DNA from: an uncultured Caryophanales bacterium
Lineage (GTDB): Bacteria > Bacillota_I > Bacilli_A > RFN20 > CAG-826
DNA: 64,000 bases
Direction: 5' to 3'
Assembly: GCA_946407815.1 (NCBI GenBank)
Contig: CAMJPB010000001.1
Coordinates: 1 to 64,000, forward strand
A program made the position numbers and the translations under genes. Of this stretch, positions 4,262 to 11,502 are shown piece after piece; position 1 is the stretch's first letter; every line of letters begins with the position of its first letter. The notes beneath the pieces are model-generated. The model worked only from the letters and a program-made list of their open reading frames with translations, was not told where the DNA came from and ran no database searches.

Positions 4262-6760
4262 ATGTATCGCAATTTTATTTGTTATCGTGGTGGCAGTTCT
4301 GCGGGTTCTTTTTTTGGTGAAGAAATTTATTTAGCTGCTAAGAAAGTAGAAGATATTGTTGGTAAAACATATTTTTCTTTGTATAAAGAAAATAGCGAAG
4401 AGATTAGAAATTTCCTAAATGATCCAAAACAGCACTTAGGTGAAATTAGGAATTTCATCATGATTCTTACTAAAGGTTTCCTTGATGCGTTTTTAATTAA
4501 TGGAGAACCTAATCCTAACTCAGTCACAAGAATCGAACTTGAAGAAGCTCTTAAGAATAAAAATTTAAGATTTATTCCTATTCAATTTGCTGATTTTTCA
4601 TGGAATGACAAGACTGATGGAATAGTTAATAAAGACATTTTAGTTAAACTTTATGGTGAAGCAGGTGCTGATAGAATTATTGGTTCACCAGCAATTAATT
4701 TCACTTCAAATTTAAAAGATGAAATCGTTGAAAAAGTCGTTTCTGAATTAGATGATCAAGGGCTTATTAAGTTAAAAGTTAATAAAGATATTGTTTACAA
4801 ACTTGAATCAACTCCTTCAGTAACTCCTAAGCCAGTTTTCTGCGGTAGAGAAGAAGAACTTAGACGCATTAGAGAATTATTTGATAATGGTGATCGCATT
4901 ATTTTCTTACAAGGTATTGGAGGCATCGGAAAGACCGAGATTGCAAAGCAATACGCTAAAAGAAATAAAGCTGATTTCGACACAATTATCTATGCAACAT
5001 ATACAAATTCAGTTGTTGAACTTGTTTCATCACAAAACTATTTTAAATTAAGTCCAAACTTCCCAAGACTTGTCTTAAAAGACGGCAGTCAAGAAAGCGA
5101 TATTGATTATTTCAAGAGAAAATTAGAAGAAATTAAAAATTTCGCCACTGACCGCACTTTGATTATCATTGATAACTTTGATGTTATGGATGATGAATAC
5201 TTTAAGTTGCTGGTGGACGGCCGCTATAAAATGATTATCACAACTAGATGTGATTATTCTCGTTTCTATCCTGTTATTAAAGTCGAAGCACTTTATGATA
5301 TTGCTCAACTAAAGCAAGTATTTTTAGATAATTATCAAGGCTACATTGTTGATGCGGACGACCCAGATTTAGAGCAATTAATTACTCTTGTTAATCGTCA
5401 CACTTATACAATTGAGCTTTTAGCTCAACATATGGAGAATAGCTGCCAAACAGTTCAAGAAATGATTGAAGTGTTAAAAGACCGTGGCATTGTCTCACTT
5501 GATGAAAAAGTTAGATCAACATCTGACTCAACTCAAGTTGCATATGAAAACTTACTTAAAATGTTCAAAGTCTTCGATTTATCTAGCGATGATAAATACG
5601 TTCTAAAGATCTTATCTTTAATGCCTTTAGGTGGAGTTAATGTTAAAGATTTAAAGAATTGGATTGGAACTGAAGGACTTAAGACTGTTAAAAACTTAGA
5701 AAATAGAAGCTGGGTAACTAACACTTCTAACGGTATTGCTTTACACCCAATTATTAGAGAAGTCGTTAGACATGAACTTAAGGTAAGTGAAGCTGACATT
5801 GAGTCATTCCTAAGTGCTTTTAACGAAACAATTAAAGAAGAAAAATCATGGCATTATGTCATGGATGTTAGAAATTATTACGCTGAAATTACTGCCGAAA
5901 TTATCAAAATCCTTAAGGATATTAACGATAAAACGCTTCAATTATATAAGAATGCAGAACTCTTATTCTCATTTGGTGTTAGACCAACTCAGGCAGTGGA
6001 ACTCGGCACTAGACTTTTCAAATATTTTGAAACTAAAGATGGTGCAGATTGCTATGAATGTGCCTATTATTCATTCCAAATTGGCTGGACATATTTATTT
6101 AATATGCAACTTACCGACGCCATTTCTAATGCTGATAAATGGTTCAATGTTTCATTTGATACATTTAGAAAACTCTCACTTACCAAAGAAGATGAGTTTG
6201 CTTTCTATGGCCATTTGTTAACTCATTTATGCCGCATTAATTTAATTAAATACACAAATAGTGGAGATGCTTCTTTATTTAATCTCGCATTAAAATATGG
6301 TGAAGAAGCACTCGATAATGCTTTAAAGCATTTTGATACAAATTCCCCATTCTATTCTAGACAAGCTGTTGCCTACATGCAGTTATCTGAGGCGTATGTT
6401 ACAAACAAAGAATACGATAAGGCTTTAGACTACATTAATCACTCTTATGACATCATCGTCTCCTTATTTGGAGAAGAAGATTCAGATACATTAAATGTTT
6501 GTAGTAGAAAAGCTTTGATTTTATATAACTTAGACCGATATGAGGAAGCCTTAGATTTATCTAAGAAGAACCTTATTTTGTACGATAAATATTTCGGAAA
6601 GATGAACTATTTAAGATTTGAGCAGCTTATGACAGCATATCGCTCAAGCAAGAAACTTGGACACGATGAGGAATGCAAAACACTTCGTGAAGAAGCAATC
6701 CAAGTTGCTGATCAGTTATTGACATCTGACTCCCCAATCGTTAAGGAGTTAAATGATTAA
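4262..6760 (+). CDS. TIR/NB-ARC/TPR STAND protein, probable antiphage or stress sensor
   Basis: An 832-residue three-part protein. Residues 1-165 read as a TIR-like domain (FICYRGGSSAG at the first strand and loop, an E-rich helix RIELEEAL near 90, and FIPIQFADFSW). A GREEEL box near 195 leads into an NB-ARC ATPase with P-loop GIGGIGKT (218-225), Walker B IIIDNFD (301-307) and sensor strand IITTR (near 325), followed by a winged-helix region. From about 590 to the end lie TPR-type helical repeats (for example A-x-x-Y-x-Q-L-S-E-A-Y and the ALILYNLDRYEEALDL repeat). This matches bacterial NLR-like proteins in which ligand sensing by repeats triggers oligomerisation and TIR activity, often NAD hydrolysis. 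The ribosome site AGGAAA fixes the start. The TIR call is weaker than the NB-ARC call, because the catalytic Glu cannot be assigned without alignment. Confidence 0.8.
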   Translation: MYRNFICYRGGSSAGSFFGEEIYLAAKKVEDIVGKTYFSLYKENSEEIRNFLNDPKQHLGEIRNFIMILTKGFLDAFLINGEPNPNSVTRIELEEALKNKNLRFIPIQFADFSWNDKTDGIVNKDILVKLYGEAGADRIIGSPAINFTSNLKDEIVEKVVSELDDQGLIKLKVNKDIVYKLESTPSVTPKPVFCGREEELRRIRELFDNGDRIIFLQGIGGIGKTEIAKQYAKRNKADFDTIIYATYTNSVVELVSSQNYFKLSPNFPRLVLKDGSQESDIDYFKRKLEEIKNFATDRTLIIIDNFDVMDDEYFKLLVDGRYKMIITTRCDYSRFYPVIKVEALYDIAQLKQVFLDNYQGYIVDADDPDLEQLITLVNRHTYTIELLAQHMENSCQTVQEMIEVLKDRGIVSLDEKVRSTSDSTQVAYENLLKMFKVFDLSSDDKYVLKILSLMPLGGVNVKDLKNWIGTEGLKTVKNLENRSWVTNTSNGIALHPIIREVVRHELKVSEADIESFLSAFNETIKEEKSWHYVMDVRNYYAEITAEIIKILKDINDKTLQLYKNAELLFSFGVRPTQAVELGTRLFKYFETKDGADCYECAYYSFQIGWTYLFNMQLTDAISNADKWFNVSFDTFRKLSLTKEDEFAFYGHLLTHLCRINLIKYTNSGDASLFNLALKYGEEALDNALKHFDTNSPFYSRQAVAYMQLSEAYVTNKEYDKALDYINHSYDIIVSLFGEEDSDTLNVCSRKALILYNLDRYEEALDLSKKNLILYDKYFGKMNYLRFEQLMTAYRSSKKLGHDEECKTLREEAIQVADQLLTSDSPIVKELND

Positions 6761-6782: not shown

Positions 6783-7214
6783 ATGAACGCAGAATTAAAA
6801 GAATTTTTGCAAAGCATCCTTGAGATGAGCTTCGAAGAAAAGGTTGGATTAGGCAAAAGCGCACTTGCTGAGTTCACTCACGCATTAGCTGATTATGGAC
6901 TTTCAGACAATGAAATTGGTGCTTCTATTGTTGGTTTCACCAGATTATTCGTTTCCGCTGATTACGATTGTGGAAGAGAAGAATATGAGTTCTTCAAAGC
7001 AGTTACTGGTCAATACATTTCAGAATCTGATTTCTATGATTTAACCAACCACGGAAGAGATACTGATTTCTTACAAAGCGCTGGTGAATATCTCGATTCT
7101 ATGACATTTGAGCAAAGAAGAGCCATTGTCATTTATGGTGTTGCTTTATTAAGCTGCGACAACGTATTAAAAGTTGACGAGATTAAGATGATTGAAGCCA
7201 TTCTTGGCCAATAA
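6783..7214 (+). CDS. TerB-like small acidic protein, partner of the STAND gene
   Basis: A 143-residue, acidic, all-helical protein. The C-terminal segment (DNVLKVDEIKMIEAIL) has the TerB pattern of an acidic loop before a helix that starts D-E/E-x-x-x-I-x-x-I, and the N-terminal half may be a second, degenerate copy (SADYDCGREEYEFFKAV). TerB-type domains are found in tellurite-resistance and phage-defence loci and near stress-signalling ATPases. A 22-nt gap holding TTAGGAGAAA joins it to the preceding gene, so the two are almost certainly one operon. A role as regulator or cofactor of the STAND protein is inference from position. Confidence 0.6.
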   Translation: MNAELKEFLQSILEMSFEEKVGLGKSALAEFTHALADYGLSDNEIGASIVGFTRLFVSADYDCGREEYEFFKAVTGQYISESDFYDLTNHGRDTDFLQSAGEYLDSMTFEQRRAIVIYGVALLSCDNVLKVDEIKMIEAILGQ

Positions 7215-7231
7215 TTATTTAATAATTAAAC

Positions 7232-8749
7232 ATGTATCAAAAGATTAAAAAACATTTTTTAGAACACGCAAATGAGGTTGCTTTAATCTACAAAGATAGG
7301 CAAGTTTCTTATAAGGATTTAGGTAAGCTTATTAACGAGATAAGTGATCGTTTAGAGCACACTTTAGGCGTGAAAGAAAACGATGTTATTTTAATCGCAA
7401 TACCAAATACAATTGAAGCTGTGACAAGCATCTATGGCGTAAATAAAATCGGTGCAATATGTGATATGATGCATCACATTTGCCCGTTTAATATGATTAT
7501 TAATAACGCCATATTTACTGAAGCAAAATACCTTCTTCTTTCAGATAAGGTAGTCAAAGACTACGTTGAAGATTATAAAAAATACAAAGATAAGATTTAC
7601 CTATTCCAAAGTGATGACGAAGAGAGAATTCCGGGTTTTAATTATTTATTAGACTTAAGTCTAACTTATAAAGAAACAAGAGAATGCCACGATGATAAAA
7701 AGACATCATTTTATCTTCAATCTGGATCGACAACAGGAAAATCAAAAAGTATTTGTTTAAATTCTTATTCTTTCGACATTCTTGTTGATGAGTTTCCGAA
7801 ACTTTTAAATACAGACAAGCACTTAAATTATGCTTCCGTATTGCCGCTTCATCACGGTTTCGGTCTTTGTATGTGCATGCATGCTGCTCTTTCGTTTGGA
7901 AATACACTGATTCTTTTTTCTAAATTTAGAACTCAAGACTTTATAGATGCGATGAACAAATATAAGATCCATGTGATTAATGGAGTTCCCACAATTTACG
8001 AAGCACTTTTAGCGAATCCAAATTTTTACATTAGTAAAAATATTAAAGACATTTATATGACTATGTGCGGAGGGGACGGAACTTCCAGAAGTTTAAAAGA
8101 GAGATGGAATAAGGCGATGAAAGACGGAGGAAGTAGTTGCCTCCTTTGCGAAGGTTATGGCTTAACTGAAACAGTTACCGGAATTGCTCTTAACACTTAT
8201 GAACACTACAAAATTGAAGGTGTTGGAAGAGCATTTTCATACGCTGAATTCATTATTATGGATGAAAATCATAACATCCTCAAACCATACGAAATTGGCG
8301 ATGTCTGCATTAGATCAAAATGTATGATGAACGGTTATCTAAAAGACGAAGAAGCAACCAAAAAGACTTTTTATAAAGATTTGCTCATAACTGGTGACCT
8401 CGGCTACCTAGATGAAGACGGTCATTTATACTTTAAAGGTAGAAAAAAGAGAGTCGTTAAAGTTCAAGGAGCGATGGTGTTTCCTCAAGAAATTGAAGAA
8501 TTGGTGGAGCACATTGCAGGTGTTAAAAGAGCCTGCGCAGTTGGGATCAAAGATGAAAGAAAAGGCGCAAAAATTAAGTTATTTGTTATTAAAGATAACA
8601 CTGACGAAAATGAGCTTCGAAAAAATATCTTAGATACTGCTAAGAAAAATCTTGATAAATGGTCGATTCCTGAAGAAATTATTTTCTTGGAAGATTTTCC
8701 AAAAACACCAATTGGGAAGGTTGATTTTAATGCCCTTGCTAAAATGTGA
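7232..8749 (+). CDS. AMP-dependent synthetase/ligase (acyl-CoA synthetase family)
   Basis: A 505-residue ANL-superfamily adenylating enzyme. The phosphate-binding loop is LQSGSTTGKSKSI (near 158-170), the adenine and acyl-pocket motif is EGYGLTET (near 308), the conserved Asp is in ITGDLGYLDEDGHLYFKGRKK (near 390-410), and the C-terminal catalytic Lys is in PIGKVD. These residues are all present, so the enzyme should be active in adenylating a carboxylate and passing it to CoA or a carrier thiol. The substrate cannot be told. It follows the TerB-like gene by 17 nt and precedes the RiPP precursor by 56 nt, though the latter has its own promoter. A free-standing acyl carrier protein lies about 8 kb away and could be an acceptor, but that is only a possibility. 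Confidence 0.85.
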   Translation: MYQKIKKHFLEHANEVALIYKDRQVSYKDLGKLINEISDRLEHTLGVKENDVILIAIPNTIEAVTSIYGVNKIGAICDMMHHICPFNMIINNAIFTEAKYLLLSDKVVKDYVEDYKKYKDKIYLFQSDDEERIPGFNYLLDLSLTYKETRECHDDKKTSFYLQSGSTTGKSKSICLNSYSFDILVDEFPKLLNTDKHLNYASVLPLHHGFGLCMCMHAALSFGNTLILFSKFRTQDFIDAMNKYKIHVINGVPTIYEALLANPNFYISKNIKDIYMTMCGGDGTSRSLKERWNKAMKDGGSSCLLCEGYGLTETVTGIALNTYEHYKIEGVGRAFSYAEFIIMDENHNILKPYEIGDVCIRSKCMMNGYLKDEEATKKTFYKDLLITGDLGYLDEDGHLYFKGRKKRVVKVQGAMVFPQEIEELVEHIAGVKRACAVGIKDERKGAKIKLFVIKDNTDENELRKNILDTAKKNLDKWSIPEEIIFLEDFPKTPIGKVDFNALAKM

Positions 8750-8778: not shown

Positions 8779-8805
8779 ATTAAAAATCGGTAAAGGAGAA
8801 CTAAA

Positions 8806-8973
8806 ATGTTTAAAATTACAGACAATTTAGCTAACGAAATGAATTCTTACGTTGAAGCAAATAACGCTAACGTTAAAGAATACGAATGTGAATCCTTTGG
8901 TTGTATGGATTGCACAAATTCCTGCGCAGAAAACTGCTCAAGAAACTGCAAACACAACGTTAAGAATCACTAA
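8806..8973 (+). CDS. Cys-rich RiPP precursor peptide candidate (six Cys, C-x3 repeat core)
   Basis: A 55-residue peptide with ribosome site AAAGGAG 7 nt before ATG. Residues 1-26 form an acidic, Asn-rich, cysteine-free leader-like region. All six cysteines fall in residues 28-48 (C28, C33, C36, C40, C44, C48), the last four at exact four-residue spacing (CTNSCAENCSRNC), and the tail is short and basic with two His. It lies 5 nt before a SPASM radical SAM gene. The layout matches radical-SAM-modified RiPPs that gain thioether links (SCIFF/ranthipeptides, and peptides with C-x3 repeats); the exact spacing differs from the SCIFF consensus as I know it. That it is modified and secreted is inference from the neighbouring gene; no dedicated protease or exporter sits next to it. 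Confidence 0.75.
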   Translation: MFKITDNLANEMNSYVEANNANVKEYECESFGCMDCTNSCAENCSRNCKHNVKNH

Positions 8974-8978
8974 TTTTC

Positions 8979-10097
8979 ATGTCGTCTAACATTAAAACAA
9001 AAAGTATTACACTAGTTTTAACTCATCAGTGTAATTTAGCATGCACTTATTGCTATGAGAAACACAAAGACAATCAAAGAATGTCTTTTGATGTTGCTAA
9101 AAATATTGTAGACAAAGAGTTGATGCTAGATGACGGAACCAACTTTGTTGAAATAGACTTATTCGGTGGAGAACCACTTTTAGAATTCCCTCTTGTTCAA
9201 AAGATCGTTGAATACGTCAAAAGTAGGAAATATCCAAAAGAATATGTCTTTTTTATTACCACAAACGGTGTTCTTTTAAATGAGACACGTAAGAAATGGC
9301 TTGCTGAAAATGCTGAATATTTGCAACTAGGTTTATCTTTGGATGGCACTAAAAAGATGCACGATATGAATCGTAATAATTCATATGACAAAATCGACAT
9401 TCCATTCTTTGTAAAAACCTATAAAAATCAGGGCATTAAGATGACCATTTCTAAAGAAACCCTACCATTTTTAGCGGAAGGAATTATTCACGCTCACTCA
9501 TTAGGCTTTGATGATGTTAATGCTAATTTAGCTTATGGCATTGACTGGACAGACAAAGAAAATGAAAAGATTTATGAACGTGAACTAATAAACTTAGTTG
9601 ATTATTATTTAGAACATCCTGAAATTACACCTTGCTCTATTCTTGACATTAATCGTTTACAGTCATTGACAAGTGAACTTAATGAAGCAAGCAGACATTG
9701 CGGAGCGGGTGTTTATATGAAAGCTTATGACTATGATGGAACATTCTATCCATGTCAGCATTTCTTACCATTATCAATTGGTCAAGAGAAAGCTTTCGAT
9801 TCATTAAAAATTGATTTTAAAAACTCAGCGACAGACATTGATTCATTCTCTGAGGAATGTCGAAACTGTAAAATGAAAAATGTTTGTCCAACTTGTTATG
9901 GAGAAAATTTCTCCATGACAGGGGATATTAATAAACGAGATATGTCGTTATGCCGCTTATTCAAGATTCAATTTAAATCATTAGCCTACTTTGTCTCAAA
10001 ATTATTTGAGAAAGGTCGCCTTGATGATCTTGATGTATCAAGTAAAGTTCGTATTTTGAAAGCCGCATTAATTGTCGATAAAGAAATATCTTTATGA
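8979..10097 (+). CDS. Radical SAM/SPASM peptide maturase
   Basis: A 372-residue radical SAM enzyme. The S-adenosylmethionine cluster motif C18-x3-C22-x2-C25 lies in THQCNLACTYCYEKH, followed by the GGEPLLE loop near residue 64. The C-terminal half carries SPASM-type cysteines: HCGAGVYMKAYDYDGTFYPC, then ECRNCKMKNVCPTCYGEN, then a last Cys in MSLCRLF, enough to bind one or two auxiliary Fe-S clusters. SPASM enzymes next to small Cys-rich peptides install thioether crosslinks. The start lies 5 nt after the precursor stop and has no ribosome site, so its translation is likely coupled and low compared with the peptide, as is usual for a modifying enzyme. It is somewhat shorter than SCIFF maturases. 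Confidence 0.88.
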   Translation: MSSNIKTKSITLVLTHQCNLACTYCYEKHKDNQRMSFDVAKNIVDKELMLDDGTNFVEIDLFGGEPLLEFPLVQKIVEYVKSRKYPKEYVFFITTNGVLLNETRKKWLAENAEYLQLGLSLDGTKKMHDMNRNNSYDKIDIPFFVKTYKNQGIKMTISKETLPFLAEGIIHAHSLGFDDVNANLAYGIDWTDKENEKIYERELINLVDYYLEHPEITPCSILDINRLQSLTSELNEASRHCGAGVYMKAYDYDGTFYPCQHFLPLSIGQEKAFDSLKIDFKNSATDIDSFSEECRNCKMKNVCPTCYGENFSMTGDINKRDMSLCRLFKIQFKSLAYFVSKLFEKGRLDDLDVSSKVRILKAALIVDKEISL

Positions 10098-10606
10098 GAA
10101 TAGAAACTGAAAGATTATTTATTTTAAATGTCACTCAAGAAGATGCTAGTGACATTTTAAAAATACAGGAAACCCATTATGCTAAAAGATATAATCTTTT
10201 CCCATCTCTAAAAATTGATGATATACACAAGGAAATTAGTGACTCCGAAATGTATAAATTAATTTTAAAAGATAACAACGAGATAATCGGATTGATCAGA
10301 GTCAAAGAAGATTATTATAGATATAATCCTAAAGCAAGACATGTCCTAATTATTATGAAGGAAGAATATTCTTCTAAAGGATATATGTCTGAAGCATTAA
10401 GTAATGTTTATGATGAACTTTTTAAAAAGTATGACATCTTAACAGGTTACATTTTCGCAGACAACAAAGCCTCAATTAGAGTCAGCGAAAAAACCGGATG
10501 GAAAAATGAAGGAACGCTTCGTCAGGCAATCTTAGACTCAAATAACATTGTTCATGACTTAGTTGTCGTGTCATTAACTAAAGAAGATTATTTAAATAAC
10601 AAATAG
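10094..10606 (+). CDS. GNAT N-acetyltransferase (RimJ/RimL type)
   Basis: A 170-residue acetyl-CoA-dependent N-acetyltransferase. The opening IETERLFIL, the strand-and-helix segment ARHVLIIMKEEYSSKGYMSEAL (acetyl-CoA loop Y-S-S-K-G-Y-M-S-E-A) and the closing NKASIRVSEKTGWKNEGTLR are typical of the RimJ/RimL branch. Its ATG overlaps the TGA of the radical SAM gene by 4 nt (ATGA), so the two are translationally coupled. This suggests that it acts in the same pathway, either acetylating the peptide or giving self-protection. The family also includes housekeeping enzymes acting on ribosomal proteins, so this role is inference. Confidence 0.85.
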   Translation: MRIETERLFILNVTQEDASDILKIQETHYAKRYNLFPSLKIDDIHKEISDSEMYKLILKDNNEIIGLIRVKEDYYRYNPKARHVLIIMKEEYSSKGYMSEALSNVYDELFKKYDILTGYIFADNKASIRVSEKTGWKNEGTLRQAILDSNNIVHDLVVVSLTKEDYLNNK

Positions 10607-10615
10607 CAAAAATCT

Positions 10616-11479
10616 ATGAAAGTTTTATATCTTTATTCAGATAAAACAGGCATTTCTAAATCTAAAAGAAAAGTCGAAAAATTGAATAATTCACTACGAA
10701 GTATTTACAGTGACATAACAATAAAAAAGACGGAAAATCTCGAGGATTTTGATAAAAATATACGGGATTCTGCGGGAATTTTTGATATTTTGATCGTCGC
10801 CGGTGGTGATGGTACAGTCAAGTATACTGTCGGAGTTTTAATGAGCATTCCGAAAGAGAAAAGACCAATTGTTGGTTACATTCCAACAGGCACAGTAAAT
10901 GATGCTGGAAAAGCAGCTGGCTATAAAGGATCTATTCGCCAAGCTCTTAAAGTTTTAAAGGCTGGCGCTGTCGATACAGTTGATATTTGTAAAGTTAATA
11001 ATGAATACTTTACCTTTGTTTGTGCTGCTGGAGCTTTCTCTGATATTTCTTACGTTGTCAAAAGAGGTTATAAAAAGGTAATTGGCCGCTTAGCTTATTA
11101 TTTCTATGCTTTATCACAAGTATTTAAGAAAAGAGTGATTGAGGCAGAAATTGAAACTAAAGACAACAAATTTAGCGTTAAAGCTCCATTTATAATGATT
11201 ATGAACAGTAGAAACGTTGGCGGTTTCCCAGTTAATTTCGATTACTCTGTCAAAGATGGACTGGCGGAAGTTTACATTACAAAACCTGGAATATTTAACG
11301 GTTTACTTCATTATGCCTTCTTCAAAGTAAGAACAATCAAGATGAAAGTTGATTACATAAAAATCACCTTAAAGAATGATGATTATTGGTGCTATGATGG
11401 CGAAAGAGGGGACAAGAAAACTGTTGAAATTCAAGTCCTAAAACAAGAAATAAAAGTCATTGGAAAAGCGCAAAAATGA
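10616..11479 (+). CDS. Diacylglycerol/lipid kinase, YegS/DgkB type
   Basis: A 287-residue soluble lipid kinase. The nucleotide-binding loop VAGGDGTVKYTVG lies near residue 62, followed by PTGTVNDAGKAAG and the C-terminal family signatures MIMNSRNVGGF and YDGERGD. Members phosphorylate diacylglycerol released during lipoteichoic acid synthesis, or related lipids. The gene begins 9 nt after the acetyltransferase and ends at a strong terminator, so it lies in the same transcription unit as the peptide cluster although it is probably a housekeeping gene. Confidence 0.9.
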   Translation: MKVLYLYSDKTGISKSKRKVEKLNNSLRSIYSDITIKKTENLEDFDKNIRDSAGIFDILIVAGGDGTVKYTVGVLMSIPKEKRPIVGYIPTGTVNDAGKAAGYKGSIRQALKVLKAGAVDTVDICKVNNEYFTFVCAAGAFSDISYVVKRGYKKVIGRLAYYFYALSQVFKKRVIEAEIETKDNKFSVKAPFIMIMNSRNVGGFPVNFDYSVKDGLAEVYITKPGIFNGLLHYAFFKVRTIKMKVDYIKITLKNDDYWCYDGERGDKKTVEIQVLKQEIKVIGKAQK

Positions 11480-11502
11480 AAGGAGCTAACTAGCTCCTTT
11501 TT
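11479..11502 (+). terminator. Rho-independent terminator after the lipid kinase
   Basis: Nine-base stem AAAGGAGCT/AGCTCCTTT with AACT loop and five T. It overlaps the last base of the kinase stop codon and the last two bases of the convergent guanylate kinase gene. The stem core is the same as that of the terminator at 1228-1247. Confidence 0.85.

Follow-up and report, generated by a model that had tools for sequence, protein, structure and literature searches.

A cysteine-rich peptide and a short SPASM radical SAM enzyme form an uncharacterized RiPP family, one clade of which carries a GNAT acyltransferase and, mostly, an adenylate-forming ligase

In the window analyzed here, the first 64,000 nucleotides of contig CAMJPB010000001.1 of an uncultured Caryophanales bacterium (GenBank assembly GCA_946407815.1), a small Cys-rich peptide is encoded immediately before a radical SAM/SPASM enzyme and a GNAT acyltransferase, which raises the question of whether these genes make a ribosomally synthesized and posttranslationally modified peptide (RiPP) and what the acyltransferase would contribute to it. 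The arrangement described in the original prediction holds: the peptide's stop codon (8971-8973) lies 5 nt before the radical SAM start codon (ATG, 8979), and the radical SAM and GNAT genes overlap by 4 nt. In addition, we identified an adenylate-forming ligase gene 56 nt upstream of the peptide gene. The features of the locus are as follows.

7232..8749, + strand: adenylate-forming acyl-CoA ligase with AMP-binding and AMP-binding_C domains, 505 aa, putative acyl donor supply
8793..8799, + strand: Shine-Dalgarno-like AAGGAGA, 5' of the precursor gene, read directly from the sequence
8806..8973, + strand: precursor peptide, 55 aa; leader MFKITDNLANEMNSYVEANNANVKEYECESFG; putative core CMDCTNSCAENCSRNCKHNVKNH; full translation from the ATG start MFKITDNLANEMNSYVEANNANVKEYECESFGCMDCTNSCAENCSRNCKHNVKNH
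8902..8952, + strand: conserved core codons C-x2-C-x3-C-x3-C-x3-C-K, from comparison of relatives, the window, and simulations
8979..10097, + strand: radical SAM/SPASM peptide maturase, 372 aa, from family profiles and predicted fold
10094..10606, + strand: GNAT acyltransferase, 170 aa, putative tailoring enzyme, from profiles, alignment, and model
10616..11479, + strand: lipid kinase resembling diacylglycerol kinase, separated from the GNAT gene by 9 nt
11479..11500, no strand: inverted repeat AAAGGAGCTAACTAGCTCCTTT with T runs, between convergent genes, read from the sequence

The lipid kinase gene probably shares a transcript with the cassette and has no counterpart at the other loci; the inverted repeat behind it likely marks the end of the transcription unit. 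No exporter, transporter, or protease gene was found within the cassette, so export and maturation would proceed via genes elsewhere, or the product would be intracellular. Upstream of the ligase gene, in the same direction and with short gaps leading into it, are a STAND-like NTPase of 832 aa that contains TPR repeats (4262-6760; AAA_16, NB-ARC, TPR_12) and a 143-aa protein with no family match (6783-7214), neither of which recurs at the other loci. The STAND-type gene, for which PADLOC returned nothing more than weak partial matches to CRISPR-associated regulators, was rejected as a component of the system, as it is not conserved at other loci.

Searches for the enzyme covered genomes from its genus, family, order, and phylum as well as from two Clostridia families, amounting to 1917 genome searches with some genomes repeated, and extended to genome, viral, and plasmid collections. 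The enzyme is rare: out of 224 genomes in its own family, 5 have it at E <= 1e-60, the window's genome counted. We examined 18 further enzymes with their surroundings, keeping two true CXXX-repeat enzymes (L003 and L049) separate, and a small Cys-rich peptide lies beside the homologous enzyme in 16 of these 18 loci, mostly upstream and within ~100 nt, and downstream in L029, L039, L040, and L048. Weaker pairings are those of L041, whose peptide does not have the MF start, and L040, whose peptide gene is 582 nt away; near the enzymes of L043 and L044, no small Cys-rich peptide was found. The peptide frame is thus kept beside the enzyme both in the window's family and in Clostridia, which supports the RiPP cluster originally proposed; a lack of such conservation had been named there as the outcome that would speak against it. 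Precursor and radical SAM enzyme are therefore very probably a RiPP pair, and they represent a real, so far uncharacterized RiPP family that recurs in distantly related bacteria. Spread by viruses or plasmids was considered and rejected: the viral collection yielded no more than a truncated fragment (44%) lying at the end of a contig and a second, weak match, and plasmid relatives reach at most 36% identity and mostly belong to known families. In genome G782 (L038), the peptide-enzyme pair adjoins two serine-recombinase-like genes, which suggests a mobile element.

Six Cys are present in the window peptide at residues 28, 33, 36, 40, 44, and 48, with the predicted spacing of 5-3-4-4-4, but the first of them is not conserved and the motif shared by the family has five. 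Alignment of the relatives defines this core as C-x2-C-x3-C-x3-C-x3-C, with C28 of the window peptide and C26 of L030 falling outside it. The pattern is not due to chance: it turns up once in the window's six frames, whereas 60 windows simulated with matched dinucleotide make-up contain no instance of it. Moreover, core nucleotide differences among five related peptides are distributed over codon positions 1/2/3 as 24/20/70, indicating a coding frame under selection. Most precursors of the family start with MF-x-[ILV]. Within the window's clade the leader is variable, the core reads GCM[D/T]C[S/T]N[S/H]CAENC[A/S]x[K/N]CK, and all five peptides have Gly-Gly or Phe-Gly before the first conserved Cys, a possible cleavage site judging from sequence. 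Across relatives the number of Cys ranges from five up to eleven, the latter in L031 (genome G358), with eight C-x3-C units.

The enzyme itself qualifies as a radical SAM/SPASM protein by motif, Cys content, and fold. It carries CX3CX2C at residues 18-25 and seven SPASM Cys (241, 259, 294, 297, 303, 306, and 325), all of which are invariant, together with the Cys of CX3CX2C, in an alignment of 17 enzymes. Its AlphaFold2 model (pLDDT 90.2) is closest among solved structures to CteB (5wgg; Z 31.9, 2.8 Å, 318 residues), ahead of ChlB (Z 26.1) and anSME (Z 24.6), and CteB is also the best solved-structure match by sequence (E 9.8e-34). As CteB is a thioether-forming SCIFF maturase, the window maturase probably makes thioethers too. 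The alignment with CteB starts at its residue 92, and that with the TIGR03974 model at position 95, indicating that the N-terminal RRE region of ~90 residues is missing from the window maturase.

Among NCBIfam models, TIGR04115 (198.5 bits, cut-off 350) and then PapB NF047865 (176.8 bits, cut-off 340) score best, and the SCIFF maturase TIGR03974 reaches 116 bits (cut-off 425), with a similar pattern for relatives of the window maturase. All scores, including those for Clo7bot and CcpM, stay below cut-off, and membership in the SCIFF, PapB, CXXX-repeat, Clo7bot, and CcpM families was consequently rejected. This agrees with the initial observation that the peptide resembles SCIFF and C-x3-repeat precursors while fitting the consensus of neither.

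With the CXXX-repeat systems (maturase TIGR04115; targets TIGR04114, TIGR04117, and TIGR04118), the family shares a core of repeated C-x3-C units, but the window peptide matches the targets faintly (16 bits, below cut-offs of 50 and 20). By comparison, L003 (504.5 bits) and L049 (487 bits), which are genuine TIGR04115 proteins, have a fused TIGR04119 domain that the 372-aa window enzyme does not have, and form a separate branch of the tree, whereas the window locus adds the GNAT and the ligase. Downstream of L049, which is on Anaerococcus prevotii plasmid pAPRE01, are genes for ABC transporters and for a lanthionine synthetase of class III, and the upstream peptide listed for L049 has only four Cys. 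The PapB/PapA system (freyrasin) likewise combines its enzyme with a small Cys-rich precursor, but PapB links Cys to Asp or Glu, and PapA contains six CX3D motifs in which each Cys is paired with Asp/Glu (PMC9413430). In contrast, the five core Cys of the window peptide are accompanied by two acidic residues, neither of which stands in C-x3-D/E register, and the cores of its siblings L035-L037 have no Asp or Glu at all, so the crosslink acceptors in this family probably differ from those of PapB. With SCIFF/CteB (thermocellin type), the enzyme shares a SPASM domain with two auxiliary clusters, yet the last SPASM pair is CX2C here and CX3C in CteB, and the window peptide matches none of the SCIFF models.

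The GNAT was singled out in the original prediction as a coupled partner, and this is borne out, as its presence is characteristic of a single maturase clade; the ligase that mostly accompanies it had gone unnoticed. A GNAT gene directly follows the maturase in all five loci of this clade (the window, L030, L004/L042, L005/L033, and L047) and in none of 14 elsewhere, and the GNAT-linked enzymes form a single clade with support of 93/95, which requires one change on the tree. The clade's GNATs are 30-33% identical to that of the window and have RYN and DxxRY motifs in common. Profile searches show likeness to RimL, SpeG, and ArsN, which are acetyl-CoA users, and the window model is likewise closest to acetyl-CoA enzymes, a fold comparison that does not separate acetyl from longer acyl specificity.

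A co-directional adenylate-forming ligase gene adjoins in four of the five GNAT loci but in none of the 14 loci that lack a GNAT. In the window and L030 it is an AMP-binding ligase upstream of the precursor (56 nt and about 30-50 nt), and in L042 and L033 a PaaK-like ligase directly downstream of the GNAT; in L047, no ligase is seen upstream of the precursor or in the 149 nt between the GNAT and the contig end. The ligases belong to two different adenylate-forming branches rather than being orthologs, sharing 26% and 16-18% identity with that of the window, and their adenylation motifs are recognizably kept. AMP-binding matches number 4 in the window's partial genome and 3 in G511, counts from a search that did not detect PaaK-like genes and so gives no background for them. 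L044, without a GNAT, has an AMP-binding gene upstream on the opposite strand. One genome, G145, contains two copies of the system with differing cores on contigs C36 (L033) and C14 (L034), only one of which is accompanied by GNAT and ligase genes. Separately, outside the window, contig C1 of G000 has an open frame of 2424 residues at 120960-125027, whose two AMP-binding domains suggest a nonribosomal peptide synthetase, although the genome is small.

The precursors change together with the GNAT. At least two Lys follow the last Cys in all five GNAT-linked precursors (two to four within the clade) and in 0 of 12 others, where there is at most one; given that the clade is one lineage, this correlation represents one evolutionary event rather than five. 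In lanthipeptides such as nostolysamides and selidamides, GNATs are known to transfer acyl groups from acyl-CoA to the side chain of Lys or ornithine (PMC13060382, PMC9505594). As in those systems, a GNAT gene within a RiPP cluster (at all five clade loci) accompanies a Lys-bearing substrate, but selidamides are lanthipeptides with the tandem GNAT NpuN (PMC13060382), whereas here the scaffold is a radical SAM one, the GNAT has a single domain, and a ligase is its neighbor. We therefore favor, with some reserve, a GNAT that acts on the peptide.

A pathway can be proposed from these observations. The precursor has a conserved N-terminal leader (MF-x-[I/V/L]...), the C-terminal five-Cys core, and a short Lys-rich tail. 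The SPASM enzyme, which has no RRE domain itself, would bind the leader and, using SAM-derived radicals and two auxiliary Fe-S clusters, form thioether crosslinks from the core Cys. The ligase would convert a carboxylic acid to an acyl-CoA, from which the GNAT would pass the acyl moiety on to the crosslinked peptide at one of its amines, most probably on a Lys of the tail. Leader removal and export may follow, and the product presumably has a biological role. That ring formation, ligase-made acyl-CoA, and acylation of the tail make up one pathway is, in our judgment, an even bet, and that the ligase is the source of the acyl group falls slightly short of even. The proposal is weakened by the nonorthologous ligases, the ligase-free L047, the resemblance of the GNAT to acetyl-CoA enzymes, and the cassette's lack of exporter and protease genes.

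The same resemblance to acetyl-CoA enzymes, in profile and model, would suit a simpler outcome in which the crosslinked RiPP is merely acetylated on its N terminus or on Lys and the ligase is an unrelated neighbor, an outcome also favored by the differing subfamilies and positions of the ligases and by the one locus without a visible ligase. Since co-directional ligases are confined to GNAT loci while AMP-binding genes are few per genome, we consider plain acetylation rather unlikely. The GNAT could instead provide self-immunity in the manner of MccE, which inactivates microcin C in the cell and belongs to a superfamily whose GNATs confer such resistance; here the mature product would be inactivated inside the producer. 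MccE chains do occur among the GNAT profile matches (E 1.7e-5), but many other GNATs score better, an exporter gene is absent, and the joint change of precursor tail and GNAT presence fits modification better than resistance, which makes immunity improbable.

A further alternative concerns the bond itself, as many SPASM enzymes form bonds other than thioethers: the product might carry a C-C or C-N crosslink or an epimerized residue, or the peptide might not be a thioether RiPP at all but a small protein that binds metal. The sibling cores devoid of Asp and Glu, the acceptors of PapB (PMC9413430), are in keeping with this. However, the nearest enzymes by sequence and fold are thioether formers, and a metal-binding protein was rejected, as the peptide's only Pfam metal-binding match is at noise level (Fer4_6, E 0.24) and no solved structure matches it; we thus give this alternative, too, only a small chance. 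Thioether rings followed by acylation of the Lys-rich tail remain our preferred reading.

To our knowledge, acylated RiPPs are rare. The literature searched contained no radical SAM RiPPs paired with both a GNAT and a CoA ligase and no acylated RiPP whose scaffold has thioethers made by a radical SAM enzyme; a gene set that joins ring formation to acyl attachment appears to be new. Tentatively, this clade may represent a class of radical SAM crosslinked peptides with its own acyl-CoA ligase and GNAT, yielding a ribosomal lipo- or arylpeptide on a thioether scaffold whose acyl group varies between bacteria by the swapping of unrelated ligases (fatty-acid-type versus phenylacetate-type) around a nearly constant core. 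More broadly, the locus defines a family, as yet without a name, of short SPASM maturases and their C-x3-C precursors, whose scores stay below the curated models. With four or five small genes, one clade of this family joins crosslinking to what is likely an acylation step. If this is true, the near-constant core combined with swapped ligases would amount to a natural experiment in changing the acyl tail.
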